54,098 nt of DNA from Methanomicrobia archaeon (lineage in GTDB: Archaea > Halobacteriota > Bog-38 > Methanoflorentales > Methanoflorentaceae). A program made the position numbers and the translations under genes. The notes beneath the pieces are model-generated. The model had not been told where the DNA came from. It saw only the letters and a program-made list of their open reading frames with translations, and ran no database searches. The stretch is from NCBI GenBank assembly GCA_015661395.1, contig JACWML010000006.1, positions 1-54,098 on the forward strand. Reading direction: 5' to 3'. Every line of letters begins with the position of its first letter. Position 1 is the first letter of the stretch. This document shows, piece after piece, positions 15,003 to 30,676 of the stretch.

Positions 15003-15992
15003 CTACGTTTTCGTTCGGTCGCCTGCGAAAAAACTGCGATACCATGACACCGTCTCAGCCAAACCTTCTTCGAAGCTATATATCGGATGCCATTTTAGTA
15101 GTCTTCTAGCCTTCGCTGCCGACAGGTATTGCTTTGTTATCTCATTCGTTGACTCATTCAAGATGATCGGGTTCAGCTCGCTCTTCATGACCTGCAGTAT
15201 CTTCTTAACAACTTCCAATACGGTCATAGGCTGCTCTGTACTGAAGTTAAACGCTTCTCCATGGATGCTTTTGTCATCCATCTTTTCCGCCAGCAGAGCG
15301 TATGATGTAGCTGCGTCTTTGATGTAAAGGTAATCACGCAGGTAACTCCCGTCACTGCGAATGAGTGGTCGTTGTTCTCTTAGGACAGACTTGATGGTCC
15401 CAGGGACGACCCTACTAAAGTTCAAGTCTCCCCCTCCATAAAAGTTCCCACATCGCGTTACGCAGACTGGCAAGGCGTATGTATGATAATAGCTGCTCGA
15501 TAGCAGGTCGGCACAGCTTTTGGATACGTCGTACGGATGCGCCCCCCTCAAAGGCATCTTCTCATCGTACGGAAGATCTCCCTGTTGTCCGTATGCCTTG
15601 TCGCTAGAGGCGATAACGACCCGACTGATTAACGGCGCTCTTCTACAAGCCTCCAAGATGTTCCACGTGCCGTTGATGTTGGATTTGAATGTGGATATTG
15701 GATTTCTGTTAGCAATCGTGACGATTGTCTGAGCAGCCAAGTGAAACACTGTATCAATTTCATACTCGTTCAGACACCTTTCAAGTAGTGTATAGTCTTC
15801 AACTTCGCCGCTAATTGACACGATATCGTTCTTTATTCCTGACCAGATTAGGTGTGATTTTGGCACATAATCCCGGACCAATCCGACAACATTAGCATCC
15901 TTTTCGATCAAATACCTAGATAACCAAAAGCCCAGGAATCCGGTACAACCTGTTACAAAAACATTTCGGTCCTTCCAGAAGTTGATCGACAT
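15003..15992 (-). CDS. rfbG: CDP-glucose 4,6-dehydratase
   Basis: 329 residues of extended [12 protein letters not shown] at residues 13-21 binds NAD, SSDKAYG carries the serine-region residues, and PYDVSK has the catalytic Tyr and Lys. [15 protein letters not shown] and the hydrophobic segment after the first Rossmann unit match RfbG rather than UDP-glucose epimerases. It would convert CDP-glucose to CDP-4-keto-6-deoxyglucose, the substrate for RfbH. The partner genes rfbH (19734) and rfbF (29897) are in the window. ATG 15992 is preferred over GTG 16001 because it begins at the fold. A TATA-like box lies at 16052-16057. Here it is separated from rfbH by a hydrolase and a flippase gene, unlike the compact bacterial order. 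Confidence 0.85.
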
Positions 15993-16051
15993 TTTTACCA
16001 CGTTAAAGCGCTTTTAGCCTGTGATACGAGTCAAGTTGCGCTAGGCGAGCC

Positions 16052-16057
16052 TTTATA
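16052..16057 (-). promoter_or_regulatory. TATA-like box for rfbG
   Basis: On the minus strand the sequence reads ACATATAAAGG. A transcript start about 25 bases downstream would give a leader of about 35 bases to ATG 15992. Confidence 0.5.
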
Positions 16058-16493
16058 TGTAGAGAGCGAAGGGTTGTTTGGATACCATGCGAATTGACTG
16101 CATTCGAGATTCGACGCCTGCGACTCCTTCTTGTGAGCGTTTGCATTTTTGTAATGGACTTTGTGTCCCTCTAGCTTGTGCCTTTCATACGAGACTTTGG
16201 CTTATTCTTTTTTCTTAAGTCCACGCACTTTTTTATAGCCGTTGAACTCGGCTCCACTGACTCTATCTACGTATTCATTATTGATAGCTTGTAGGTTGAT
16301 TGCTGATGCTCCGGGGACACACTGCGACAGTTCGCGAGTGCCTCCTCACTTATAGCGTCCTTGCCTTGATTTCACATTGAAAGATATATTCGTTAGAAGA
16401 TTCATCAGCAACCTTATGAGTATGAGCTTGTACGTTAGAGAGACAAGGCCTCATCGTGAAGGCACACGTCGGACCATTTGGATGAATGAGGAA
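16058..16493. other. gene-poor interval between two convergent minus-strand genes
   Basis: About 430 bases, AT-rich, with no frame I can tie to a family. The open stretch on the plus strand at 16377-16616 runs into the hydrolase gene on the other strand and lacks recognisable content. Confidence 0.4.
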
Positions 16494-17237
16494 CTATACC
16501 TTCAACTGCAAGTTATCAAACGAAACCACCAGATTTTCAAATACCATTCTCATCTCTTCTTGCACCTCAATTCTCTCTTTAAGAGTTTTATAAACATCGG
16601 CGTCGAAATGCACTAAAACTAGTTTCTTAACCCTCGCCTCATCAGCAATAGCAACTGCATCATCCGGATTTAGATGAGGCCATTCATAATTTCTTTGCCC
16701 CCTCTTAAAAGAACATTCAGCGATAAGCAAATCAGCGTTTCTTGCTAGTCTAATGGCATTTTCACAGATTCCCGTATCAGGACAGTACGTGATTATCTTC
16801 CCATCGAGCTGAAACCGGTACCCTAGACACGTCGAGGAATGAAACAGGTACTTGCATTCTACAAGAAAGGGTATATTGTGCGTGCCTTCAGGAAGTTCCT
16901 TTACCTCAACTTTAAAGGGCAGTTGGGATAAAGGCACTGTAAACGGCTCATTGACTATGTTGTTTAGGATTGCTGTTGTGCCAACCTGCCCAAAAATTTG
17001 GAGTCCACGTTTGAAATTGAACCTATTCAAAATATGTAAACCAGCAATGTGGTCGAGGTGGAAATGGCTTAAGAATAGAGAAACAGGTTTTTGGCCCCTA
17101 TCATATTGGTCTACTTTATAAATTCCGTTGCCTGCATCAAGGATGATCAGGTGGTCTTTTGACTCCACAAGAACGCACGTGGTATTCCCTGTTTTTGTAT
17201 CGTACCATCCATTAGTACCGAGGAAGACAACCTCCAT
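16494..17237 (-). CDS. MBL-fold metallo-hydrolase (RNase Z/phosphodiesterase-like)
   Basis: 247 residues. The metal-binding HxHxDH motif is present as H58, H60, D62, H63 in SHFHLDHIAG. Further ligands are likely in LFHSSTCLGYRF (H), ITYCPDTG (D) and LVLVHFDAD (H). The order matches the RNase Z/ElaC and cyclic-phosphodiesterase branch, but the long exosite arm of RNase Z is absent. It is cytosolic with no signal peptide. It stands between rfbG and the flippase with gaps on both sides, so a direct role in glycan synthesis is not shown. A TTTAAT element about 30 bases upstream (minus strand, near 17265) suggests a very short leader. Confidence 0.8.
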   Translation of the reverse strand: MEVVFLGTNGWYDTKTGNTTCVLVESKDHLIILDAGNGIYKVDQYDRGQKPVSLFLSHFHLDHIAGLHILNRFNFKRGLQIFGQVGTTAILNNIVNEPFTVPLSQLPFKVEVKELPEGTHNIPFLVECKYLFHSSTCLGYRFQLDGKIITYCPDTGICENAIRLARNADLLIAECSFKRGQRNYEWPHLNPDDAVAIADEARVKKLVLVHFDADVYKTLKERIEVQEEMRMVFENLVVSFDNLQLKV

Positions 17238-17372
17238 TGCTAATACACCAGAATCGGATCATTCATTAAATTCACGCAGGCTAACCTCCTACCGATAAAA
17301 CTCACAAGCTGTTTTACGTCCTCGCGTATCGGCACAGCACAAATTCCCTATATCCCAAGCTAGAAAAAGTAG

Positions 17373-17535
17373 TTAGCTTGTCTCAATGTTGTTCAGCAAC
17401 CTGCTGACATCTTTTCGTATGTCGTTAGTCAACTTGATAGTACTTTTCTTTAGGATCATCACAAAAATAAACATGGCATTTTAGCCAATTCATTCTTCTT
17501 AATATTTCCTTGACAATATCAAATACGCTTTGCAT
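17373..17535 (-). pseudogene. small unknown protein, apparently frameshifted
   Basis: From ATG 17535 the frame reads MQSVFDIVKEILRRMNWLKC, HVYFCDDPKEKYYQVD and stops. The adjacent frame takes over exactly there with KLTNDIRKDVSRLLNNIETS and a stop at 17373. The joined product of about 55 residues is amphipathic and charged and looks like a real small protein or the C-terminal piece of one. I do not recognise a family. The rest of the interval 17238-17833 shows only AT-rich sequence, including possible promoter elements for the flippase gene. Confidence 0.3.
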
Positions 17536-17833
17536 CTTACTGACGTAGTTAAACCCTCATTGGAAGTCAACAATGCGCAACAGGTTTAAGTCATTGGACC
17601 ACAAGTGCCGGAGTCTTGTTTACCATATCCAACCAGATACATTTACGTAAAATCGCGACAGCTTAAATATTCCAAAGAGAAGAGCAAGAAGGAGATGACC
17701 AGAAGAGGGATCCGTGTATCACAAAACCGTTTAAATCACTCATCTTTTGCGTGAGTTAATTCTATGTCTTAATAGGTCAAACTCGTCGCGTCACTCGTGA
17801 AAGAACAATTAGCTAGGTGATTTTTTGCCGCGT

Positions 17834-19351
17834 ATGCAGCTCAACATCGTTGCGAATTTCATTGGCAGATTTTGGGGTGCACTGATGGCTTGGGCCTTTG
17901 TCCCCATTTATATCAGGTTTATGGGCATAGAATCATATGGGTTAGTTGGGTTTTTCGCTACTCTGCAGACAATCTTCATGCTCATAAATCTCGGATTGGG
18001 ACGCTCATTCGAGATTGAAGTCGCGCGATTATCCGCAGGACAAGAGGATCAACAGACAACCCATAATCTCCTGCGCACGCTTGAGATCTTGTATTGGACC
18101 GCAGCAATCTTGATTGTTATATTGCTCATCTTCCTCGCTCCATCGATCTCAAACTACTGGCTAATCGCCCCAGGATTTTCGCCAAACGCCTTACAACTAA
18201 TAATCGTAATGATAGGGATCCTGATTGGATTAAATCTAATTCAAGGACTGTACGGTATTGGCTTGCTAGCCTTGCAGAAACAAGTGAGATTCAACGTAAT
18301 AAACTCCACCTTTGGAACATTGCAGGCCGTGGGCGCAATTCTCGCTTTGTCGTTCATCGCACCAACAATTCAGGTTTTTTTTGAATGGCAGATTATTATC
18401 AACATAATCTGGACCGTTGCCGTGTTGTTCGCTTTGCGACGTGCGATGGGGCCCGTCTCCTCGGCGCCTCGATTTGACAAGAAACTGTTGTTGGATATAC
18501 GGCATTTGACAGCTGGCATCACGGGGATAGCAGTCTTGACAACGATATTCAGCAGCGCCGACAAGGTAATCTTAAGCAAGATGTTGACTCTTGAATACTT
18601 TGGGTACTACACGCTGGCGTGGGGTGCGGCCTCTTTGTTGGCTTTAGTTACGTCTCCTATCGCTACTGCTGTTTTTCCTCGAATGGTACAGATTGTAGAG
18701 CGCCGAGATGAGGGAGCCCTGACAAAGATTTACCACCAAAGTTGTCAACTTCAAACAATGACGGTTTTCCCTATCGCGCTCGTATTAGTGTTTTTTTCAT
18801 CGGAGTTTCTTTTCCTGTGGACCGGCAGCCCTGCGATTGTAGCTAATGCCCACATTATTTTGTCGGTCTTAGTTCTCGGTGCTGCAATTGCCTCGCTTTC
18901 CGTGGTGCCGCAAAATCTACAACTCGCATACAAATGGACGAAGTTGGCTGTCATCTTACAATTGGTCAGTGTAATTGCGTTGATCCCGCTGATTATCTGG
19001 CTGACGATTAACTATGGAATAGTCGGTGCTCCCGTTGCGCTCTTAGCAGTCAACATTTTTTATGTTGCTGTTTTTGTCGTGCTCACCCATCAGCGCTATC
19101 TTAAACATGAATATAGCCGTTGGCTGCTTCGTGACACGGTGATCCCAGCAGTTGGTACCGCGACAGTTGTTGTAATCGCTCGATTGATTGCTCCGGCTTC
19201 TCTCTCACGACTAAACATTCTCTTCGAGTTGGCCATGATTTTTGCACTTGCGATAACCGTAGCAGCTTCTTTAAGTCCCGAAGTTCGCCCCATAATCAAA
19301 GGGAATTATCAGCTTCTGAGAGAATCGCTGCCTTTTTTTAGCTCAAAATAG
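17834..19351 (+). CDS. polysaccharide flippase (Wzx/MATE-like)
   Basis: 505 residues with about 12-14 hydrophobic segments evenly spaced from the N-terminus (GRFWGALMAWAFVPIYIRF) to the C-terminus. The first helix pair and the polar loop MGIESYGLVGFFATLQ match oligosaccharide flippases of the PST family. A charged loop SSADKVILSKML in the middle is typical of the second half. It should flip a lipid-linked oligosaccharide across the cytoplasmic membrane. ATG 17834 is chosen over TTG 17825. It is the only flippase visible in the window, so it probably serves the product of this island. Confidence 0.85.
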   Translation: MQLNIVANFIGRFWGALMAWAFVPIYIRFMGIESYGLVGFFATLQTIFMLINLGLGRSFEIEVARLSAGQEDQQTTHNLLRTLEILYWTAAILIVILLIFLAPSISNYWLIAPGFSPNALQLIIVMIGILIGLNLIQGLYGIGLLALQKQVRFNVINSTFGTLQAVGAILALSFIAPTIQVFFEWQIIINIIWTVAVLFALRRAMGPVSSAPRFDKKLLLDIRHLTAGITGIAVLTTIFSSADKVILSKMLTLEYFGYYTLAWGAASLLALVTSPIATAVFPRMVQIVERRDEGALTKIYHQSCQLQTMTVFPIALVLVFFSSEFLFLWTGSPAIVANAHIILSVLVLGAAIASLSVVPQNLQLAYKWTKLAVILQLVSVIALIPLIIWLTINYGIVGAPVALLAVNIFYVAVFVVLTHQRYLKHEYSRWLLRDTVIPAVGTATVVVIARLIAPASLSRLNILFELAMIFALAITVAASLSPEVRPIIKGNYQLLRESLPFFSSK

Positions 19352-19733
19352 CCGTTGGAAGTGTGCGTGTCGAAACAGGGTGCTGGAGAAAAACTAGGGA
19401 GTATCAGGGCCCGCATTTGAGCGTCATTTTCTAGCCGCCTAACGCACCTGCATACTGCCCGATCGGCCCGACTGACTTATTGTGCGTCCCGATCTCTGTG
19501 TCAGTTCAGAGACTATTGAGTTACTAGGGATGCAGTGCTTTGGCCTTGCGCTCGTCATCCTTGTAAGAATGTGGTAGTCAAACAGGAACCAAACTATAAC
19601 AAGCGCCGCAGCTCTGGTTCGATTCAGGAATGAGTCGCGCGGCATCTGAAATGAGTGCAATATGTTAAAAACTATAAGCGAGTTTTGATACGGGCTGAAC
19701 CTTGTGCCCCCCCTCAATGGCATAAGCTTTAGA
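19352..19733. other. gene-poor interval (382 bases)
   Basis: Convergent ends of the flippase and rfbH genes. A minus-strand open frame (19439-19768) overlaps the end of rfbH and has no recognisable family. A short hydrophobic stretch (ALVIVWFLFDYHIL) in it could be a remnant. Nothing firm. Confidence 0.35.
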
Positions 19734-21041
19734 CTAGCACACGAACTCTGAAAACTTTTCGGAAACATAGCGAATCATCTCACTATTTATTCCAGGATAA
19801 ACTCCAATCCAGAAGAGATTGTTCATTACTAAGTCCGTGTTTAACAACGAATCTACCACTCTGTACGGGACGTCCTTGTATGCTGGTTGTCGGGTTAGAT
19901 TCCCTCCAAAGAGCATTCTTGTCGCAATATTGTGGGATTCCAAGTAGGCGACAGCTTCATCTCTCGTAAATGGTGCGTTGGTTTTCACAAGAAGAGGAAA
20001 ACCGAACCAGCTCGGATCGCTTTTGCGTGTTGCGCGAGGGAGTAAAAGGTACCTGTGAAATTTTTGCAGTCGCTTCTTGAATTCTTCAAAGTTGTGTTTT
20101 CTTTTCTGGATGAAAAATGGAAGCTTTTTCAATTGCTCAATTCCGATAGCAGCTTGCAAATCGGTCATTTTGAGGTTGTAGCCTACGTGCGAATAGATGT
20201 ACTTATGATCATATCCGCGCGGAAGAGTCCCTAGTTGCCAATCGAACCGTTTGCGGCAGGTGTTATCGTAGCCCGGCTTGCACCAACAGCTCCTGCCCCA
20301 ATCTCTCATAGACAGAACTATCTTTCGCAACGCGGAGTCGTCGGTGAGCACTGCGCCCCCTTCTCCCGTGGTGATATGGTGAGCAGGGTAAAAGCTGCAG
20401 GTAGCAAGATCACCAAACGATCCTGTGTATCCCCCATCATATTTCGATCCAAGAGCGTCGCAGTTGTCTTCTACGAACCAGACTTCATGGTCTCGTGAGA
20501 GCTCTGATATTTGTTCGATGTCGGCTGGATTGCCCAAGGTATGTGGGACGAAAATCGCTTTGGTTCTACTTGTGAGTCCTTCCTCAATCTTGTTGGCTTG
20601 GATGTTGTACCCGCCAATATCAACGTCAACAAAGACTGGAATTAAGCCATTTTGAATGATCGGGTTTACGGTTGTTGGGAACCCACAGGCTGTTGTGATA
20701 ACCTCGTCTCCTGGTTTGAGCCGCCGTTTCCCCAGCTCCGGTGACATCAATGCGGCGATGGCCAGCAAATTTGCTGACGAGCCAGAATTGGTGAGAAGGC
20801 AATGCTTGACCCCAATAAAGGTTGCTAAATCAGCCTCAAATCGTTCTGCACACGGCCCCGCTGTCAGCCAGAAATCGAGCGACGCGCCCACAAGCCTTAT
20901 TATTTCTTGTTCGTCAAAGACTCGGCCAGCATAATTAACGCGCGTTCTCCCGGGGATAAATCTGGTCTCGCTTGTTCGCAGCTCATATAGCGCTCGTACT
21001 TTTTCGAATATTTCCAGTTTTAAGTCCGCCTCGTTTTTCAC
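19734..21041 (-). CDS. rfbH: CDP-6-deoxy-4-keto-glucose 3-dehydratase (E1, RfbH)
   Basis: 435 residues of the DegT/DnrJ aminotransferase fold that has become a PMP-dependent dehydratase. The PLP lysine is replaced by histidine (H221/H222 in FYPAHHITTGEGG). The [2Fe-2S] cysteines stand as C194, C252, C254 and C262, spaced X57, X1 and X7 as in Yersinia E1. The enzyme removes the C3 hydroxyl of CDP-4-keto-6-deoxyglucose and normally needs the reductase E3 (RfbI/AscD). No E3 gene is visible in the window, so another ferredoxin or reductase would have to serve. Its GTG start overlaps the stop of the TPP-enzyme gene (GTGA at 21041-21038), so the two are translated together. A relic of a second, differently coded copy is at 26836. 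Confidence 0.92.
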   Translation of the reverse strand: MKNEADLKLEIFEKVRALYELRTSETRFIPGRTRVNYAGRVFDEQEIIRLVGASLDFWLTAGPCAERFEADLATFIGVKHCLLTNSGSSANLLAIAALMSPELGKRRLKPGDEVITTACGFPTTVNPIIQNGLIPVFVDVDIGGYNIQANKIEEGLTSRTKAIFVPHTLGNPADIEQISELSRDHEVWFVEDNCDALGSKYDGGYTGSFGDLATCSFYPAHHITTGEGGAVLTDDSALRKIVLSMRDWGRSCWCKPGYDNTCRKRFDWQLGTLPRGYDHKYIYSHVGYNLKMTDLQAAIGIEQLKKLPFFIQKRKHNFEEFKKRLQKFHRYLLLPRATRKSDPSWFGFPLLVKTNAPFTRDEAVAYLESHNIATRMLFGGNLTRQPAYKDVPYRVVDSLLNTDLVMNNLFWIGVYPGINSEMIRYVSEKFSEFVC

Positions 21042-22795
21042 GTTTCGTACTCGTCTTGTAGGATATCCACAAACATGGCAGCTCTAAGCTCTTCGCGGGT
21101 AAGCAGCGGCTCTTGGTCTTCTACTGGTTTATTCACCGACAACTTGGGTGTAGCGCTGCAGTTCATATCAATCTCCACTTCGAGGAGTGCTGGTTGTTTA
21201 TCATCAAACAACATATTCAAAGCGTGATCTATCTCCGAATTGCGAGTTATTTTAAATGTTCTGATTTTATAAGATCGAACGACATCTTGGAAGTCCGGTG
21301 CGCTGTATCCGATAACAGAAGACTGAAAACGGCCATCGAGATACTGCTGCTGGAATTGTCGTATCATACCGTAACAGTTGTTGTTTAACAACACAATTTT
21401 GACCGGCAGCTGGTGATGGTAAAGCGTTTGGAGCTCTTGAATGTTTAGCTGGAAGCCACCGTCGCCAGTAATAGCTACTATAGTGTGATCTGGCTTGGCA
21501 AAAGATGCTCCTATGGCCAAAGGCAAAGCACACCCCATTGACGCCATACCTCCTTCAGTTAGGATTCTTTGCTGGCGTCTTACCTCAAATGTTTGGGCTG
21601 TCCACATTTGGATTTGTCCAACGTCAAGGCAAATAACAGCGTCATCTGGCGTTTGCCTTGACAGTTTGGAAATAAAATATCCAGGGACAATGTGTGGTGC
21701 AGTTGGTTCGACGTACGCTGGATATTTGATTTTGCACCGTTGGATATGTTTTTTCCAAGGAATTAACGCCGTATGGTCAACTTCGAGACTACTTCCATTT
21801 AGCAATTCTAGAAACCTCTTAATGTCCATGTGTATGGGATAATCAGCTTGGACCTTGTTGTTCAGTTCTGCCGGATCGATATCTACGTGCACTATCGTCG
21901 CCTTTCGAGCAAAAGTTTCTGGCTTTGTACCAGTTTGGCGTGTGTCGAATCTGGTCCCCAATGCCAAAAGCAGATCGGAATTTGCGACTGCCAAATTGGC
22001 ATATCGATTCCCATACGTGCCTATCATGCCAATGTACGATGGATCATCGTGTGCAAAAGCATCTAAACCCATCAAGGAAGTTACCACGGGGATATGCGTC
22101 TTCCGTACGAATTGCGCTAGTTGCTCTTGCGCTTGCGCCAATCGGACGCCGCCGCCCGCAAGAATAATGGGTCGAGAGGCAGCACTGAGCAGCGAGACGA
22201 GTTGATCGATAGTTTCTGCACTAATTTCTTCAGCGGGCCCCTCTGCAATACTGAACTCGGGTAACTTTGTTGGATCTATTTCCGCTCTCTGGATATTTAG
22301 AGGAATATCCAGCAGCACTGGACCAGGACGACCCTGAGATGCCAAAAAAAATAGCTCTTCGAGAGCATATCGGATCTTTTCTTCGTTGGTTATCAATAAT
22401 GCCTTCTTGGTAATTGGTTCAACTATGTGGACAATGTCTGCCTCCTGAAAGCCAATCTGTCGAACCGGCTTGTTGAATTTGAATTCATAGGTGTTGACTT
22501 GACCCGTGATAAATAGACACGGAATGGAGTCGAAGAAGCAACTTGCGATGCCGGTAATCATGTTGGTCGCTCCTGGTCCGCTTGTAGCCATCGCTACCCC
22601 AATGTTATTGCTCGCCCTGGCGTATCCTTCTGCAGCAATTGATGCAGCCATTTCGTGATGCATTGAGACTGTTGATATGTCCTTTCTGTCGTATAATGAA
22701 TCCAATAAGTGTGCCAGTGCACCCCCACACACCTCGAATATGTGAGTGACGCCTTTGGAGACGAGAAAATCAAGTACGTAATTAGACAGTTTCAT
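21038..22795 (-). CDS. thiamine-diphosphate-dependent enzyme, acetolactate-synthase/YerE-like
   Basis: 585 residues in the three-domain acetohydroxyacid-synthase order. Catalytic Glu48 lies in SMHHEMAASIAAEGYARA. A central FAD/DHS-like domain carries RPIILAGGGVRLA. The ThDP-Mg motif GDGG (D445) is followed about 27 residues later by NNN (471-473). Coupled to rfbH, it is best read as a YerE-type enzyme, which transfers a two-carbon unit from pyruvate to C4 of CDP-3,6-dideoxy-4-keto-glucose in yersiniose synthesis. An ordinary catabolic or biosynthetic acetolactate synthase is the alternative, but its place next to rfbH and the absence of an ilvN or ilvC gene argue against this. Substrate assignment is inference from context. 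Confidence 0.85.
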   Translation of the reverse strand: MKLSNYVLDFLVSKGVTHIFEVCGGALAHLLDSLYDRKDISTVSMHHEMAASIAAEGYARASNNIGVAMATSGPGATNMITGIASCFFDSIPCLFITGQVNTYEFKFNKPVRQIGFQEADIVHIVEPITKKALLITNEEKIRYALEELFFLASQGRPGPVLLDIPLNIQRAEIDPTKLPEFSIAEGPAEEISAETIDQLVSLLSAASRPIILAGGGVRLAQAQEQLAQFVRKTHIPVVTSLMGLDAFAHDDPSYIGMIGTYGNRYANLAVANSDLLLALGTRFDTRQTGTKPETFARKATIVHVDIDPAELNNKVQADYPIHMDIKRFLELLNGSSLEVDHTALIPWKKHIQRCKIKYPAYVEPTAPHIVPGYFISKLSRQTPDDAVICLDVGQIQMWTAQTFEVRRQQRILTEGGMASMGCALPLAIGASFAKPDHTIVAITGDGGFQLNIQELQTLYHHQLPVKIVLLNNNCYGMIRQFQQQYLDGRFQSSVIGYSAPDFQDVVRSYKIRTFKITRNSEIDHALNMLFDDKQPALLEVEIDMNCSATPKLSVNKPVEDQEPLLTREELRAAMFVDILQDEYET

Positions 22796-22894
22796 AATTC
22801 ACGTCTCAAATTGCTGAGTTCGCATTTCGCTGCGACTGAGTGCGTTATCAAGACGCCCCCTAACTATCGCACTGTGTACAAGGACAAGTTGCGC

Positions 22895-23400
22895 TTAAAA
22901 CCACTTAATTGTTTGTCTGAGGCCCTCATCCAAACTGCAGGGTGGCCTTCATCCCAATTTGTTTTCCGCGTTAGAAATGTCAGCGACCCAATTAGGGGGC
23001 TCTTTTGCCCATTTTGGGGCCGGGCGCCAATCAAAGCAAGCAACTGTTTTGTCAATATTTCCTTCCCTTTTTTTGTGTCAAAAGGTCGTGGAGGGACTAA
23101 ATTCCATCCAACTAAACTCTTTGAATTTGTGAGCTCAATTATTTTCGCTACAATAAGAAACAGATTTTTATGAACCACTGCCAACATACATATCTGTCCT
23201 TTGTACCTATGAGCCTGATCTGTAAATGCAACGCCAAACTAATGACATCATTGACAAAAACGTAACCTTATCGCTTTCGGATTCGCAAGATTAGGTTCTT
23301 TCCCTTCAAAGCGTTTGTTATAGCATGCGTTATTAATCTTGATGGGTCATCATACGACCGAATGGAGAAAATAGTCTTAAGTAATTATGGGCTTATTATT
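22895..23400 (-). pseudogene. decayed SDR epimerase/reductase (C-terminal half) upstream of the YerE-like gene
   Basis: Pieces of one extended SDR appear in order in shifting frames on the minus strand: NYLRLFSPFGR, DDPSRLITHAITNALKGKNL, FVNDVIS, YVGSGS, VAKIIELTNSKS, VPPRPF, VADISNAENKLG and, after an in-frame TGA at 22949-22951, RPPCSLDEGLRQTIKWF with the final stop at 22895-22897. That order is the C-terminal half of nucleotide-sugar epimerases and 4-reductases, and the DDPSRL sequence resembles CDP-sugar reductases. At least three frameshifts and two stops make it non-functional. Lying 100 bases upstream of the TPP gene on the same strand, it was probably the same operon's sugar 4-reductase or side-chain reductase (YerF-type). 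That last step is inference. Confidence 0.6.
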
Positions 23401-23461
23401 TACTTTAGCGACCTGGCTGGCATATAATGCAGATGCGAGTTTTGTAATGGCATACATTTGA

Positions 23462-23726
23462 TTCGTGGAGATTGCTCAAGCTTATGGAATAAAAGGCGTA
23501 AGCATTAACAAGGTTTCGGAAGTCGAGCCTAAAACAAAAAAGTCATGGAATATGACGGCCCGGTGATTTGCGACGTGATGACACCGGAATGGCAGTTGAT
23601 TGAGCTCGGGATTTCTTCTGAGCGAATGCCGGACGGCACCTTGGTGGCCAAGCCTTACGAAGATATGTATCCTTTTTGCCGCGCAAGGAATATGATAAAG
23701 AAATGACGGTTAAGCCGCCAGAGTAA
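23462..23726 (+). pseudogene. C-terminal relic of a bacterial-type TPP enzyme (acetolactate-synthase-like)
   Basis: Reading through two single-base losses gives FVEIAQAYGIKGVSINKVSE, then EYDGPVICDVMTPEWQL, ERMPDGTLVAKPYEDMYPF and RKEYDKEMTVKPPE, ending with TAA at 23724. This is the C-terminus of a ThDP enzyme related in function to, but different from, the intact one at 21038. Both shifts fall in homopolymers (AAAAAA near 23540 and TTTTT near 23673, each one base short). The N-terminal five-sixths is missing and the relic abuts the decayed SDR on the other strand. The GNAT gene starts 4 bases after the stop, so this was the upstream gene of a bacterial-style operon. Confidence 0.65.
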
Positions 23727-23730
23727 ACAG

Positions 23731-24384
23731 ATGGAAAATGCATTGAAAGATGATTATAAGAGTTTAACCCTAGCGAAAATAAAAAAGTTAAAGCACGGGG
23801 GTTTTGGCCGTACTTCCATAAAGTGCATGTATGCGGATTTAGGATTTGAAATCATCTTATTAACTTCGGACTGCGCTAAAAGCCAGGAGTTGATGGAGCT
23901 TTTGGGCAGGTGGCGTAAAGAAAATGAGGCTTGGTATCTTTCTCAGTTTCCAGTTTCTATCAGAAGAACAACTAGGTGGTTTGTTGACAAACTCATTGAG
24001 GTGCCAGATAGGATGCTTTTTATTATTAAAATATCCGGTAAATATGTCGGCCATGTAGGGTTGTTTGGGTTTGATTTTGATAAGCGAACCTGTGAAATTG
24101 ATAATATATTGCGCGGGGAAAAGGATTTCCCGGGCATAATGGGTTGCGCAGTCAGGGGTATGATGGATTGGGGGGGGCGAAATCTTAAGCTTAGAGGCTA
24201 CAGTTTGAAAGTATTGTCGGATAACTTAAGGGCGGTCAGGTTTTATCAGAAATTAGGGTACCAGGAGACTTCTCGGATTCCTTTAATACAGGTTAATGGC
24301 AGGGATGGGTTGGAATGGGCGCAAGCCCCGCAAGACTATGAAGGGAAAGCGGCAAGATATTACGTAGTTATGGAATCGGTTTAA
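23731..24384 (+). CDS. GNAT-family N-acetyltransferase
   Basis: 217 residues, intact. The acetyl-CoA-binding region is visible near the C-terminus as SLKVLSDNLRAVRFYQKLGY. The central strands YVGHVGLFGFDFDKRTCEID fit the RimJ/RimL-like GNAT fold. Such enzymes in sugar operons acetylate amino sugars, which fits the two aminotransferase-fold genes that follow. Codon choice (AAT/AAA/GAT-rich, short intergenic gaps) differs from the archaeal genes on either side and resembles low-GC bacteria. It lies 4 bases after the TPP relic and 51 bases before the aminotransferase. The substrate is unknown, and it may be non-functional in practice because its pathway partners are broken. Confidence 0.75.
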   Translation: MENALKDDYKSLTLAKIKKLKHGGFGRTSIKCMYADLGFEIILLTSDCAKSQELMELLGRWRKENEAWYLSQFPVSIRRTTRWFVDKLIEVPDRMLFIIKISGKYVGHVGLFGFDFDKRTCEIDNILRGEKDFPGIMGCAVRGMMDWGGRNLKLRGYSLKVLSDNLRAVRFYQKLGYQETSRIPLIQVNGRDGLEWAQAPQDYEGKAARYYVVMESV

Positions 24385-24435
24385 TGCCTACGAGATAATG
24401 AGCAGTGAAAATAGTCAAAAGGGTAAAGTTAAAAA

Positions 24436-25613
24436 ATGAGTTTAGCTGTCAGCAAGCGTTCACAACTAATCGTTCAATCTGAAATACGCAATATGTCTAT
24501 TGAATGCGATAGGGTAGGAGGCATTGACTTATCGCAAGGGGTTTGTGACTTAAGTCTTCCTTTGGCCGTAAGGAATGGCGCTAAGGAAGCTCTGGATAAA
24601 GGCCTAAATCAGTATACGCGTTATGATGGAATTGACGAGTTGAGCTCTCAATTGCCAAAAAGATGAAAAGGTACAATAATATCCAAGCGCGTTCTGATAA
24701 AAATATGATTGTCTGTTGCGGAGCTACGGGTGCGTTTTATTCGGCGTGTTTAGCTTTGCTCAATCTGGGTGATGAGGTAATTATTTTTGAGCCTTATTAC
24801 GGGTATCATATCAACACGTTTTTGGCGGTTGGAGCAAAGCCGGTTTTTGTTAGGTTAATCCCACCGGATTGGGGATTCGATTTAAACGACTTAAAAAATA
24901 TCATCACCAAGAAAACCAAGGGTATTATGATTAATACACCGGCTAATCCTTCCGGTAAGGTATTTTCTCAAAGAGAACTTGAAGATATTGCCGACCTAGC
25001 TTTAAAGCATGATTTGTTTGTGTTTACCGATGAGATATATGAATATCCTATTTGTGACGGTGTGACGGGCTAAAACATATCAGTCCGGGATCGCTACCCG
25101 GGATTAAGGATAGAACGATTACTATTTCAGGATGTTCTACGACTTTTAGTATCACCGGCTGGAGAGTGGGGTATTGTGTTTGTGACGAAAAGTGGGCCAA
25201 GATGATCGGATATATAAATGATTTGTTTTATGTCTGCGCTCCGGCTCCGCTGCAATTTGGGGTATTTAAGGGGATCGAAGTTTAATGATAGATTTTATGC
25301 CGGGCTTTGCCGGGATTATCTGTTGAAGCGCGATAGAATATGCCGGGCTTTAAATAGCGCAGGCCTGAGACCTTTTGTCCCTAAGGGGGCTTATTATGTT
25401 TTGGTTGATGCTTCAAATTTTCCCGGGAAAACCAATAAAGATAAAGCCATGTTCTGCGTAAGAAAGACGCCTATCGCTTCGGTTCCGGGAGAAGCTTTTT
25501 ATCATGATCATAGCGGCAAAAACATATTACGATTTTGCTTTGCCAAAAAAGATCCCGTATTGGATGAGGTTTGTAAAAGATTAATAAAATGCAAAAAAGA
25601 TTGGGCAGTATGA
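24436..25613 (+). pseudogene. class I/II PLP aminotransferase, multiply frameshifted, catalytic Lys lost
   Basis: One aminotransferase is spread over three frames: 24436-24666 (GLNQYTRYDGIDEL), 24663-25073 (VCCGATGAFYSACLALLNLG, TPANPSGKVFSQRELE, DEIYEY) and 25090-25613 (HISPGSLPGIKDRT, FSITGWRVGYC, GAYYVLVDASNFPG, LRFCFAKKDP). Frame breaks are near 24640, 25055 and 25275. The PLP lysine normally found in SKTFS before ITGWR is a threonine here (ACG at 25139-25141), so the product would be dead even if the frames were joined. It belongs to the foreign block 23.4-27.2 kb. Its last codons overlap the left direct repeat of the small insertion at 25622. Confidence 0.8.
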
Positions 25614-25723
25614 ATAAGAAATAAGGCTTTGTTGAAGTAGCCCACAAACACCCCAACTTTTTCAATACAGGTCATACTTTTTCAACACGAGAGACCTATT
25701 CAAAAAAGCCTATGAATAAGAAA
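25609..25723. mobile_element. short insertion element (MITE/IS relic, about 89 bases) with 13-base direct repeats
   Basis: Flanking copies of TATGAATAAGAAA at 25609-25621 and 25711-25723 bracket an 89-base insert (25622-25710). Near its ends are inverted repeats GGCTTTGTTGAA (25625-25636) and TTCAAAAAAGCC (25699-25710), matching at 11 of 12 positions. The insert has no coding capacity. The GGCTTTGTTGAA end resembles IS ends of the IS5/IS903 type, although 13-base target duplications would be more like the IS4 group. Without the insert, the aminotransferase stop and the DegT start would overlap (ATGA). The duplicated target restores the ATG of the DegT gene. Confidence 0.55.
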
Positions 25724-26815
25724 ATTAGTTTTGCCGGCCCCTGGATTACTCAGAAAGAAATAGACTATGTTATTGATGCTGCAAAAAACGGTTGGTATGA
25801 GACCTATGATATGCACGCTAAGAAGCTGGAAAACGCTGTAGCAAGTTATCTGGGAGTCAAGTATGGTATTGCGACTCATTCCTGTACACTGGCGCTGCAT
25901 TTAGCCACTGCAGCTTTGGATCTTGGAGATACCGATGAGGTAATCTGTACTGATTTCAGCTGGGTTGCTACGGCTTACGCAATCAGTTATACCGGGGCCA
26001 AGCCGGTATTTGTAGATATCGATCCGGATTCATGGTGTATTGATCCGCAGGCAATAAAAAAAGCGATCACTAATAAAACCAAAGCGATTATGCTGGTGCA
26101 TTCCTTTGGCCATCCGGCCCAAATGGATGAAATTATGAATATAGCGAAAGAATATGATTTACGGGTTATCGAAGATGCGGCGCCTTCTTTAGGGGCAGAG
26201 TTTAAGGGCCAAAAAACCGGAACTTTCGGGGATGTTGGATGTTTCAGTTTTCAAGGCGCAAAAATTGCCGTAAGCGGACAAGGCGGAATTTTTGTGACCA
26301 ATGATGAAGCGATCTATAAAAAAGCATCGTTGCTGGCTTCGATGGGCAGGACGGATTCAAAAGCCGAATTTTGGTCGGATATGCTTGGGTACCAATATAA
26401 GATTGCCAATTTAACCGCAGCACTTGCCTTAGCTCAGGTAGAAAGAATCGAGGAATTAGTTGCTAAAAAAAGAGAAATCTTTAGCTGGTATTATGAACGG
26501 CTTAAGGATGCCCGGGGTTTAAAAATTATTAAAGAAAAGAAAGATTGTAAGAGTAATTATTGTTATCCTTCGATCCTTTTACAAGACGGCTTGTCTTTAT
26601 CAAGAGATGAGGTACTAAAAAAATTAAAGGCTTTGAATATCCATTGCCGTCCGGGATTCCCGAGAATGAGCAGGTTCCCCGTTTTTGAAGCGAGGTATCC
26701 AAACCCCCAGGCAGAAAAAGTAGAAAAGCGGGGTATCTCTCTGCCTTCAGCAGGCAATTTAACTAGAGAAGATCTTGATTTCGTTTGTGATTCCTTGTTA
26801 GAGATAATTGAATAA
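25712..26815 (+). CDS. DegT/DnrJ/EryC1-family sugar aminotransferase
   Basis: 367 residues, intact. Substrate-loop region GNGWYET-like (KNGWYETYDMHAKKLENA) at the N-terminus, the cofactor aspartate in VIEDAAPSLGA, and the PLP lysine in FSFQGAKIAVSGQGG are all present, so this one is a true aminotransferase rather than an RfbH-type dehydratase. It would put an amino group on a keto sugar nucleotide in the cytosol. It belongs to the bacterial-looking block and differs in codon use from the DegT gene at 39333. Its ATG lies in the right-hand repeat of the short insertion. With the dead aminotransferase before it and the rfbH relic after it, it may be the last intact step of a lost pathway. Confidence 0.85.
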   Translation: MNKKISFAGPWITQKEIDYVIDAAKNGWYETYDMHAKKLENAVASYLGVKYGIATHSCTLALHLATAALDLGDTDEVICTDFSWVATAYAISYTGAKPVFVDIDPDSWCIDPQAIKKAITNKTKAIMLVHSFGHPAQMDEIMNIAKEYDLRVIEDAAPSLGAEFKGQKTGTFGDVGCFSFQGAKIAVSGQGGIFVTNDEAIYKKASLLASMGRTDSKAEFWSDMLGYQYKIANLTAALALAQVERIEELVAKKREIFSWYYERLKDARGLKIIKEKKDCKSNYCYPSILLQDGLSLSRDEVLKKLKALNIHCRPGFPRMSRFPVFEARYPNPQAEKVEKRGISLPSAGNLTREDLDFVCDSLLEIIE

Positions 26816-26835
26816 CCGAAATAAAGCTACTTTAG

Positions 26836-27203
26836 ATGAAGAAAACTCTAAGTCAGTTAAGAAAAGAAATAGTCACAAGAGTTAAAGAATTCCGCAGGCT
26901 AGGCAAAGCGAGTGAGAAACTGGTCCCCAGAAAAACTCAAGTTAATTATGCGGCCGCGTATACAGTGAAGAGGAGTTAGAAATTGGCTGGTGCCTCTCTT
27001 GATTTTTGGCTAACGGCAGGTAGATATGCTGCGAAATTTGAGGCTAGGCTGGCAGATTATCTGCATACAAAATATTGCGCTTTGACCAATTCCGGTTCAT
27101 CGCGAATCTCTTGGTAATCTCAGCTTTGACTTAGCCACTGTTAAAGAATCGTCAAATCTATAAAAGAATCGTCAACTAAAGAGCGGTGATAAGGTAATTA
27201 CAA
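26836..27203 (+). pseudogene. rfbH N-terminal relic (bacterial-type copy)
   Basis: Beginning at ATG 26836, in shifting frames: VPRKTQVNYA, YSEEELEI, GASLDFWLTAGRYAAKFEA, DYLHTKYCALTNSGSS, NLLVISALT and LKSGDKVIT. In the intact rfbH (19734, minus strand) the matching segments are IPGRTRVNYA, SLDFWLTAG, CLLTNSGSSANLLAIAAL and LKPGDEVIT in the same order. Several frameshifts, stops and a local duplication of AAAGAATCGTCAA near 27150 destroy it, and everything after about residue 115 is missing. It is the downstream end of the bacterial-looking block. Confidence 0.7.
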
Positions 27204-28515
27204 ATCGTTTGAAGGAGAGAACCACGCTACCTGTCGTGGTTAACAAGGTGAGTGTCTTAAACTCATTCAGCTCCTGCACATATACATTGATACTATCCTA
27301 CAAATTGAGCTGTTGAACCCTTTGCTGCATCTGCTGAACCCGTTCTCGTTCGAAAGCATTCTCCCGATGAAGGTCAGGTGTCGGGTTAAGCTCTCTCTTT
27401 AAGCAAGCTTAGTTAACAAAAGCTTAGGGGAGATCTCGCCGGGGGTATAGATCCAAAGTACAAGGTGTGAGGCACGACGCCCTATAGATGCCGTCGGTAA
27501 AGATTTGACGGATGAGTATTAGTAACCGAGCGGATAACATGGAGCGATTCCCGACGGCCGTCTAACGCACTACGTTCGGAAAAAAATGGCTTCCAGCGCC
27601 TCTACTTGTGCAGCTATTGCGCGTGAATGCCAGCGTATGCACAAAGGTCTAGTACTGCCAATCCATGATTTTGAGAGCATCTATACGTGCCGTATTAGTT
27701 TTGGCCGACGTCGAAAGAGCTCAACTTAAATGATGGAGCAAATAATAGAATATTTTAAAGCCCCCCAAGTGAAGGAATTGATTTTCCCTCGACTGGCAAG
27801 CTTTTAACCGCGGCCAAGCACTTGAAGTGTTCACTTGATATCATTGTGGCGCGTTACAATTACCAAGGCATACGATCAATTCTCACTTCGATATCGTTGA
27901 GTGTCAATTGTAGCTCAGCTCACGGCTTCCTGAATATACCACTGTTATCCAGATCAACATAGCGCACGGCTACGTTTGGGGCAAGTTCGTGCGAGAATGC
28001 AGATGAAAAGCGAGGTTTTGCAGTGTGACTTGGCGAGTTACAACGAGTCAAATATCACGTCGAATATAAATGATTCGCAACGTTGGATGCAATGAACAGG
28101 ACAATTAACAGCAAAACACAGAATCAAGACGTCGATGACACATCAGAATATAGTCTGTTTAGAAATAACGTCACGGCCTGAGAAGCACTCTTTATTATGA
28201 CGGTAGGTGCTGGCGTGCTTTCGTGGCGCGGTTATGTCACGGGTTACGCTACGGCCTTCACCCGAATCCCGAGCTGCATATTTTGGGTATGATCTTTTTT
28301 TCAGCGGGTATCGCGCAGAGCGGTTTTTTATTAATGGCGGTGATGTGATGACCGCTTTTCCCATGCTAGACTTTGTTTGAGTCTATGACATTAATAGCGT
28401 CGTTTTTTGTAGGCTGAACGCGCCTACAAATATTGAGGTCAGGCGAGTTTCGATAGGTCAGAGATGTCAATCATGATTCGAGAGTAATGGCGTCGACCAA
28501 TAAATCGGGCAGATT
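27204..28515. other. gene desert of about 1.3 kb after the foreign block
   Basis: No frame of convincing coding quality. On the minus strand 27298-27408 a 36-codon frame reads LNPTPDLHRENAFERERVQQ followed by a Gln-rich helix, a coiled coil of the kind seen at the start of some transposases (for example IS66-like), but this is weak. Near 28200-28370 fragments such as YFGYDLFFSGYRAERFF appear in one plus-strand frame without a start. I see no RNA gene, CRISPR array or long repeat. Confidence 0.4.
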
Positions 28516-29583
28516 TTAGAAGCTATCAAGAACCTGAATGTAGTTCTGGTAGTCAGCTTGAAGAGCTCTCTCATCTTGACTCTTAAAACTCGACTTGAAC
28601 CGCGATATTACGCTATATAACCGTATGATTGAGTAATATAGTGGAGGGCTATATCTGTTAGTGTTAGCTAGAGCCAATATCATTTTAGATCGTAATTCGT
28701 CACCAAACTGATGACGTAGCAAAGATGCCGTTTCATTAGCGTAGTCAAAATCTCTGCATTTGACAGCTTTCGTTCCTTCCGAATAAATCACTCCTTTCAA
28801 ATATTTTCCTAGGTGTTGTTTAACCTCAGATTTGACTTCTGGTGAAAGCCCTTCATCCGCGATTAGATTATTGATTACTTTAGAAAAACCTGAGATGAGC
28901 ACGGGATTTGGTTTAGGGCTCCATTGTACTGAATAGGACGAAGGGTTCATTACGTAAATAGCGCTTGGAGTTCTTGTAAGTACGATTGGATGGTGAGCTG
29001 CAATGCGAAACAAGTAGTCTATATCAGTGGCGTAATCAGCCTCTTCATCAAAAGTGCCTACTTCTGTCTGTATTACCTCTCTACGAATGAGTACGGACGT
29101 CCACGTTAGATGATGTCTTATGATTTCTAGTAGCGAATCAGGTGGCGCCAAATATCCTTCTCTCGATCCTGGAGGCGAGATGGCTTTGATCTCCCGATCT
29201 TGCACAATCAGACACAAGCCAGCAGAGAGCATTGCCGTTGGATACCGATTAAAAGCGCTTAATGTCGTCTCTAAAAAGTTAGGTAAGAGTATATCATCAT
29301 CACACAGAAATGAAAAAAATGGCGTATTAACACGTTCTAACGCAAATATACAATTCTTCACTACCCCAATGTTTTCCGCGTGACAAAAATATTTAATACG
29401 TGCATCTTTTTGCATCAGGACTTTCATAATTTCACGTGTTTCATCACCTGAAGCATTGTCATATACACATATTTGAAAATCCTGATATGTTTGATCTAAG
29501 ACGCTATTAATAGCACGCCTCAACAACCTTGGTCGTTTATAAGTGGGTATAATGACAGTAACTGCTGGTTCTTTAAAGTTCAT
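28516..29583 (-). CDS. GT2 family glycosyltransferase
   Basis: GT-A fold enzyme of 355 residues. The N-terminus has VTVIIPTYKRPRLLRRAINS, a strong GT2 signature. Next comes FQICVYDNASGDETRE with the donor-binding aspartate, then FFSFLCDDDILLPNF, which supplies the DxD metal site. RRDVI-like and TDIDYLFRIAAH segments are acceptor-side features. No membrane segment is evident. ATG 29583 is preferred to ATG 29598 because it begins close to the first strand; a TATA-like box lies at 29652-29659. It probably adds a hexose or deoxyhexose to the lipid-linked glycan, and it is the nearest glycosyltransferase to rfbF. Confidence 0.87.
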   Translation of the reverse strand: MNFKEPAVTVIIPTYKRPRLLRRAINSVLDQTYQDFQICVYDNASGDETREIMKVLMQKDARIKYFCHAENIGVVKNCIFALERVNTPFFSFLCDDDILLPNFLETTLSAFNRYPTAMLSAGLCLIVQDREIKAISPPGSREGYLAPPDSLLEIIRHHLTWTSVLIRREVIQTEVGTFDEEADYATDIDYLFRIAAHHPIVLTRTPSAIYVMNPSSYSVQWSPKPNPVLISGFSKVINNLIADEGLSPEVKSEVKQHLGKYLKGVIYSEGTKAVKCRDFDYANETASLLRHQFGDELRSKMILALANTNRYSPPLYYSIIRLYSVISRFKSSFKSQDERALQADYQNYIQVLDSF

Positions 29584-29651
29584 GCTTCTACCGCGCATAG
29601 TTTCCGTTCTAGCTAGTCCAATTATGAACAGGATAATGCAACACTTATCTT

Positions 29652-29659
29652 AATTATAT
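29652..29659 (-). promoter_or_regulatory. TATA-like box for the GT2 gene at 28516-29583
   Basis: Minus strand CATATAATTAAG. The expected transcript start is near 29629, giving a leader of roughly 45 bases. Confidence 0.4.
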
Positions 29660-29896
29660 GCGCTCAACTTCGCTAGTTGGCTCCTGCTCTTGTCTTTGAT
29701 TTGGAGCGCTCGTTGTTAGTGCTGACGTTCCTGAGTACCTCTGGCGCAAGCAGTAAACCTAGTTCAGAAACTTCGGTCCGATTATAGTTCCACGTGTGAA
29801 TTGATGTCTCGTATTTCAAATGCGGGGTTTTCCTTTTGTCGAAAAGGTAACCATCAAGTTAATTACCTTTTTTTGACATTAGATTCATTCAGAGCA

Positions 29897-30676
29897 CTAC
29901 CCCCAAATTCTCCACGGAGGATTAGGCGACGCCCAGATCGCATTGATCTGCTCCAGCTCCCTATATGTATCAACGCATTGCCAGAATCCGTAATGTTTGT
30001 ATATCATAAGTTGCCCATCGGACGCTAAATTCATTAGCGGCTCTCTTTCAAGAAAACAGTGCTCATCTTCAGACAAATATTTGAAGAATTGTTTATCAAA
30101 GACAAAATAGCCCCCATTTATCAGTCCTTCTTTTGTTTGAGGTTTCTCTGAAAACTCAACGACTTGATTACCGTCTAAAATGAACTCACCAAACCTAGAG
30201 GAGGGGTGCACACCTGTTATCGTACCGATTTTCCCATGTGACTTATGATAATCCACTAGATTTTGAAGGTTGATACTAGCAACCCCGTCTCCATATGTAA
30301 GCATAAAACAATCATCCGTAATGTACTTTTCAATTTTTTTGACTCTCGTCCCTGTTTCTGCCTCTTCACCCGTCTCTGCGAACGTGATAGTCCAATCTGT
30401 TTCTGAATGATCATTATGAAATGTAAGATTGCGGGGATCGCCTAATCTTATGGTAAAATCATTAGTTTTTATTTTGTAATTCAAGAAATACTCCTTTATC
30501 ATCTCACCTTTATAACCCAAACAAATAACAAAGTCGTTAAAGCCATAGCTTGAATAAGTCTTCATGATGTGCCATAGAATTGGTTTATTTCCTATTCGAA
30601 CCATTGGCTTCGGTCTGAATTCTGTTTCTTCGCGTAAACGCGTTCCCTTTCCTCCACACAAGATTACGGTTTTCAT
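29897..30676 (-). CDS. rfbF: glucose-1-phosphate cytidylyltransferase
   Basis: 259 residues, the full family length. The nucleotidyltransferase signature is ILCGGKGTRLREETEFRPKP at residues 5-24, then MVRIGNKPILWHIMK. The RfbF-specific GYKGEMIKEYFLNY, FAETGEEAETGTRVKK (sugar-binding region) and LTYGDGVASINL (metal aspartate) all follow. It makes CDP-glucose from CTP and glucose-1-phosphate, the first step toward CDP-linked 3,6-dideoxy sugars. rfbG at 15003 and rfbH at 19734 supply the next two steps, but rfbF lies 9-14 kb away from them, on the other side of the foreign block. The pathway genes are thus dispersed, unlike the contiguous rfbFGH of enterobacteria. Confidence 0.93.
   Translation of the reverse strand: MKTVILCGGKGTRLREETEFRPKPMVRIGNKPILWHIMKTYSSYGFNDFVICLGYKGEMIKEYFLNYKIKTNDFTIRLGDPRNLTFHNDHSETDWTITFAETGEEAETGTRVKKIEKYITDDCFMLTYGDGVASINLQNLVDYHKSHGKIGTITGVHPSSRFGEFILDGNQVVEFSEKPQTKEGLINGGYFVFDKQFFKYLSEDEHCFLEREPLMNLASDGQLMIYKHYGFWQCVDTYRELEQINAIWASPNPPWRIWG

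Follow-up and report, generated by a model that had tools for sequence, protein, structure and literature searches.

Gene content of the locus and its host

The window, by which we mean the whole analysed stretch of 54,098 nucleotides, carries four genes that are expected of a CDP-3,6-dideoxy sugar branching pathway: rfbF, an rfbG-like gene, rfbH and a gene for a ThDP (TPP) enzyme. All four had been listed by the first-pass annotation and all are intact ORFs. The names RfbF and RfbH are right, both proteins lying above the curated NCBIfam cut-offs. The glucose-1-phosphate cytidylyltransferase RfbF (29897..30676, minus strand) scores 336 bits against TIGR02623 (cut-off 300), with 1tzf as its best solved structure (266 bits), and RfbH, a [2Fe-2S] PMP-dependent 3-dehydrase (E1; 19734..21041, minus strand), scores 698 bits against NF011936 (cut-off 423). 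RfbH aligns end to end with the Yersinia E1 (3bcx, 527 bits); all four [2Fe-2S] cysteines are in place (C194, C252, C254 and C262, spaced C-X57-C-X1-C-X7-C), as is the Lys-to-His change, His221 being the equivalent of E1 His220. The rfbH gene starts with GTG, and this start overlaps the stop of the preceding ThDP gene by 4 nt (GTGA), as the first-pass annotation had observed. The ThDP gene (21038..22795, minus strand) encodes a predicted YerE-like carboligase of 585 amino acids.

The RfbG name is plausible for the short CDP-glucose 4,6-dehydratase-like protein encoded at 15003..16001 (minus strand), since its best family is TIGR02622, but its score of 209 bits falls below the family cut-off of 278. 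The best PDB match is 1wvg, the SDK and the Tyr and Lys motif are conserved, and the protein is 62–64% identical to the products of the rfbG-position genes at two related loci (L013 and L017). Across a series of such loci (L006-L018, L067, L068) canonical RfbG and the short type swap at one position of an otherwise identical cluster, and this interchange speaks for placing the short type at the RfbG step.

The four genes do not form one operon. Between rfbF and rfbG, both on the minus strand, there is a gap of about 14 kb that holds the ThDP-rfbH pair, a flippase, an MBL-fold hydrolase, a glycosyltransferase and a plus-strand block of acetyltransferase and aminotransferase genes. The flippase and glycosyltransferase said to lie nearby are indeed in the window: a MurJ/Wzx-like polysaccharide flippase (17825..19351, plus strand; PF13440, PF03023) and a family 2 glycosyltransferase (GT2) that adjoins rfbF (28516..29598, minus strand; PF00535). 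The hydrolase, which is RNase Z-like and under all NCBIfam cut-offs, is encoded between rfbG and the flippase gene (16494-17237, minus strand). A class I/II aminotransferase gene on the plus strand (24663-25613) falls into two ORFs (24663-25073 and 25218-25613) and is apparently broken.

Two remnants lie upstream of the ThDP gene. At the position of YerF, directly before the ThDP gene and thus at the expected place, there is an SDR pseudogene (~22865..23562, minus strand) that has internal stops and frame changes and has lost its 5' third; it was detected by tblastn with SDR queries from related operons (lowest E 2e-10) and, separately, as a match in a whole-genome search. On the opposite strand, the C-terminus of a second ThDP enzyme (23542..23717, plus strand) is recognisable by tblastn with the JanthE-type enzymes of L061 and L063 (53–57% identity, E 3e-14). 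This remnant stands directly before the acetyltransferase gene, which suggests that the island once held a second enzyme of the branching type.

The metagenome-assembled genome (MAG) consists of 102 contigs that total 2.16 Mb, with a completeness of 88%. A search of the assembly for archaeal 16S found none, so that the taxonomy rests on a named sister MAG from peat, of the same genus and with part of the same island, Methanomicrobia archaeon isolate SPRUCE.2016.33.metabat2.67 (G001). Its contig C4 (153,237 bases) carries the acetyltransferase and DegT genes of the window at 83% and 89% identity, where they stand beside a ThDP-rfbH pair of its own (locus L010). Homologues of a DUF2206 membrane protein of the window also occur elsewhere in the genus, with identities that reach 71%. 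These matches indicate that the contig is archaeal and not a stray bacterial one, and a bacterial contaminant, which had been named as a possible refutation, was rejected on the evidence of the sister contig. Between the two loci (window 23731-26815, L010 1823-4967) the acetyltransferase and DegT aminotransferase are 83–89% identical, whereas the ThDP enzyme and RfbH are only ~64% identical; the branching genes thus seem, on these values, to have a history different from that of their neighbours.

The ThDP enzyme and acetolactate synthases

The ThDP enzyme has all three Pfam TPP domains and the catalytic glutamate, features that it shares, together with the fold, with acetolactate synthases (AHAS) of the IlvB/IlvG type. 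It might thus be an AHAS paralogue that lies beside rfbH by chance, in which case the product of RfbF, RfbG and RfbH would be an unbranched 3,6-dideoxyhexose (tyvelose, abequose or ascarylose, for instance). The score against TIGR00118 (518 bits) is just below the cut-off of 538, and overall identity, at 38.6% to PpYerE and 35–38% to AHAS, does not decide the class. There are also archaeal rfbH loci that have SDRs and no ThDP gene. Among solved structures the best match by sequence is 5ahk (402 bits), followed by plant AHAS (340 bits) and JanthE (301 bits). The entry 5ahk bears the title acetohydroxy acid synthase Pf5 from Pseudomonas protegens, and we regard it as the PpYerE discussed in PMC12247030. 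A Foldseek search with the predicted structure (mean pLDDT 80), a structure-based comparison of the kind proposed by the first-pass annotation, returned JanthE (E 2e-49), plant AHAS (8e-48) and PpYerE (3e-46) without separating YerE-like enzymes from AHAS, so that the call of class rests on residues, tree and linkage.

All three speak against an AHAS. The positions M351, H352, D376 and W574 of Arabidopsis AHAS, which are known to line its acceptor site, are T/Y/T/F in the window enzyme and A/Y/V/F in PpYerE, whereas the genome's own IlvB retains M/H/D/W. In fifteen relatives the four residues are T or S, Y, T and F, so that the AHAS residues are replaced in all 16 members. AHAS forms a separate clade (100/100) in both trees. 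The window-type enzymes group with PpYerE in one tree (92/82), a clade that is neither required nor rejected after the addition of one or two sequences (p-AU 0.47). Two distant ThDP proteins encoded by the genome were left out of the tree, as their inclusion gave unreliable joins.

The linkage evidence comes from 85,000 species genomes, a pattern scan of which found close relatives of the ThDP enzyme (58–64% identity) at 13 loci. At every one of them rfbH follows directly, which argues that the linkage is not due to chance. No ilvN lies next to the ThDP gene of the window; the only ilvN of the genome (C90:25769) directly follows a separate ilvB (C90:24101) on another contig. A grouping of the TPP enzyme with an ilvN-tied IlvB, which had been named as the refuting case, was therefore not found, and the earlier view of the enzyme as YerE-like holds. 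Judged from its sequence, the window enzyme is distinct from the genome's housekeeping acetolactate synthase, and an AHAS paralogue placed beside rfbH by chance is unlikely. In plasmid and phage collections, queries with the TPP enzyme and with PpYerE returned AHAS annotations only, among the matches listed.

YerE-like enzymes vary in the donor they use, with longer chains preferred by ErwE and also accepted by JanthE (PMC12247030). The enzyme might accordingly perform a YerE-like branching with a longer or hydroxylated 2-oxoacid, as for ErwE, and the branch would then not be of two carbons. JanthE-type enzymes do occur at other archaeal rfbH loci (L061, L063, L066, L070), and one has left its remnant in the window. 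JanthE (PDB 8rph) and these loci resemble the window type in that a YerE-like ThDP enzyme stands beside RfbH and an SDR, but the JanthE type is a separate clade (100/100), has Thr and not Phe at the W574 position, and has lost R377. The intact enzyme of the window is closer to PpYerE than to JanthE by the bit scores given above, and at the position of PpYerE V479 the window type shares Ile or Val with PpYerE and AHAS. A longer or hydroxylated donor is for these reasons rather improbable, though somewhat less so than an AHAS paralogue.

Recurrence of the gene block and the missing reductases

The set is not an archaeal one-off. The hosts of the 13 loci are Methanoregula, Methanotrichaceae, peat Methanomicrobia, Omnitrophota, TA06 and other bacteria; an SDR of the same family stands directly before the ThDP gene at 11 of them, and most have the order rfbF-rfbG-SDR-ThDP-rfbH. 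Nor are such systems limited to a few bacteria, as had been assumed: more than 200 YerE-like enzymes have been predicted (PMC12247030). RfbH above the family cut-off is found in 18 of the 394 genomes of the host's phylum, that of the window included; among the other 17, five have a ThDP enzyme of the window type and four one of the JanthE type. At L070, the SDR beside rfbH is 53% identical to the CDP-abequose synthase of Salmonella. On an IMG/VR contig (L114, 2751-8734) the order is rfbF-rfbG-rfbH-ThDP-SDR; its ThDP enzyme (42%) has PpYerE-like acceptor residues (A/Y/C/R/F), and no E3 is present within the 13.7 kb seen.

The first-pass annotation had placed the E3 reductase outside the window, and there is none in it. 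An RfbI/AscD-type reductase was also sought in the rest of the genome and was not found, either with the profile PF00175, which has no match in this 88%-complete genome, or with a bacterial E3 query. The latter recognises Salmonella RfbI (37% identity, E 4e-70); it gave partial matches only and no full-length E3 in this genome and 26 others, namely 17 whose RfbH exceeds the cut-off, G044, whose RfbH relative stays under it, and 8 behind operon loci. A lack of E3 that extends over 26 further genomes looks more like a general trait of these organisms than like an assembly gap. The set in this archaeon is thus not whole, as the first-pass annotation had called it, the YerF-position SDR being decayed and E3 not being found in the genome.

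A locus in decay, with an acquired pathway that has lost its SDR and whose other genes no longer serve, would account for the two remnants, the aminotransferase in two ORFs, the dispersal of rfbF and rfbG, and the failure to find E3. However, none of the four pathway genes (rfbF, rfbG, rfbH and the ThDP gene) is truncated, their catalytic residues are intact, and the translational overlap of the ThDP-rfbH pair has been kept. Moreover, L010 and G346 lack an adjacent SDR and still keep intact ThDP-rfbH pairs. Disuse of the pathway is therefore very unlikely.

A proposed C4-branching pathway

In Yersinia pseudotuberculosis O:VI the yersiniose A pathway consists of RfbF, RfbG, RfbH, E3, YerE and YerF. 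The window has in common with it the formation of CDP-glucose, the 4,6-dehydration and the [2Fe-2S] PMP 3-dehydrase, and its ThDP enzyme has the substitution pattern of the PpYerE acceptor site. It differs in its archaeal host, the short type of RfbG, the decayed SDR and the missing E3, and its ThDP enzyme is only 38.6% identical to PpYerE. The M351/H352/D376/W574 replacements, the lack of an adjacent ilvN and the coupling to rfbH in turn distinguish the enzyme from AHAS. The best reading of the locus is that of an archaeal branching pathway of the YerE type without a recognisable E3, whose YerF-position gene has decayed in the window strain. We give a probability of roughly 0.7 to an island in which RfbF, the RfbG-like enzyme and RfbH, the last served by a general carrier and no dedicated E3, would supply a ThDP enzyme that adds a branch at C4 of a sugar bound for a surface glycan. 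Points against it are that E3 was not found, the SDR is decayed, RfbG is below its cut-off, and identity to PpYerE is hardly higher than to AHAS.

The substrate, the donor, the source of electrons, the product and its destination are deduced from the gene content as follows. RfbF would form CDP-glucose, which the RfbG-like enzyme would convert to CDP-4-keto-6-deoxyglucose. RfbH would remove the C3 hydroxyl, and the resulting glucoseen intermediate would be reduced through the [2Fe-2S] cluster of RfbH with electrons from a general carrier, e.g. ferredoxin, in place of a dedicated E3. YerE acts on CDP-4-keto-3,6-dideoxyglucose (PMC12247030). The ThDP enzyme would decarboxylate a 2-oxoacid, most likely pyruvate, and attach the resulting two-carbon unit at C4 of the 4-keto-3,6-dideoxy sugar, the most likely product by the YerE reaction being CDP-4-C-acetyl-3,6-dideoxyhexose, a C4-acetyl branched octose. 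The SDR next to the ThDP gene in relatives probably turns this acetyl group into hydroxyethyl, a step whose counterpart in paulomycin biosynthesis is performed by the aldo-keto reductase Pau7 (PMC4753412). Since the SDR of the window is dead, either the acetyl ketone may be the end product in this strain or another SDR may act, and the genome encodes more than ten relatives of that family. The neighbouring glycosyltransferases and flippase would carry the sugar into a surface glycan.

As E3 is not found, another reductant would have to serve, as is known for SpnQ of the spinosyn pathway. SpnQ is an E1-like [2Fe-2S] 3-dehydrase that has no dedicated E3 and is reported to use ferredoxin or flavodoxin reductase pairs (PMC8987622), which makes a ferredoxin-fed RfbH plausible in anaerobes by analogy. 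The two differ in that SpnQ uses a dTDP substrate in an antibiotic pathway without ThDP branching, and in that the E3 independence of the window RfbH is deduced solely from the failed gene search. More tentatively, and less likely than not, a mobile route to C4-branched CDP-3,6-dideoxy sugars that needs no E3 may be common to methanogenic archaea and anaerobic Omnitrophota, with the general ferredoxin pool of these anaerobes reducing the [2Fe-2S] cluster of RfbH; lineages without the SDR might then bear on their surface glycan an unreduced C4-acetyl ketone octose undescribed in archaea. A literature search on archaeal CDP-glucose dideoxy sugars found no paper.

The ThDP carboligases described here are predicted to form a set that may accept ketones, and such enzymes are sought as biocatalysts. 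If the proposed pathway is correct, branched octoses, so far reported from bacterial lipopolysaccharides and antibiotics, would also occur on archaeal cell surfaces, and the synthesis of 3,6-dideoxy sugars in anaerobes could run without a dedicated E3 reductase. Because the same block is present in Methanoregula, a genus with cultured members, both implications are directly testable.
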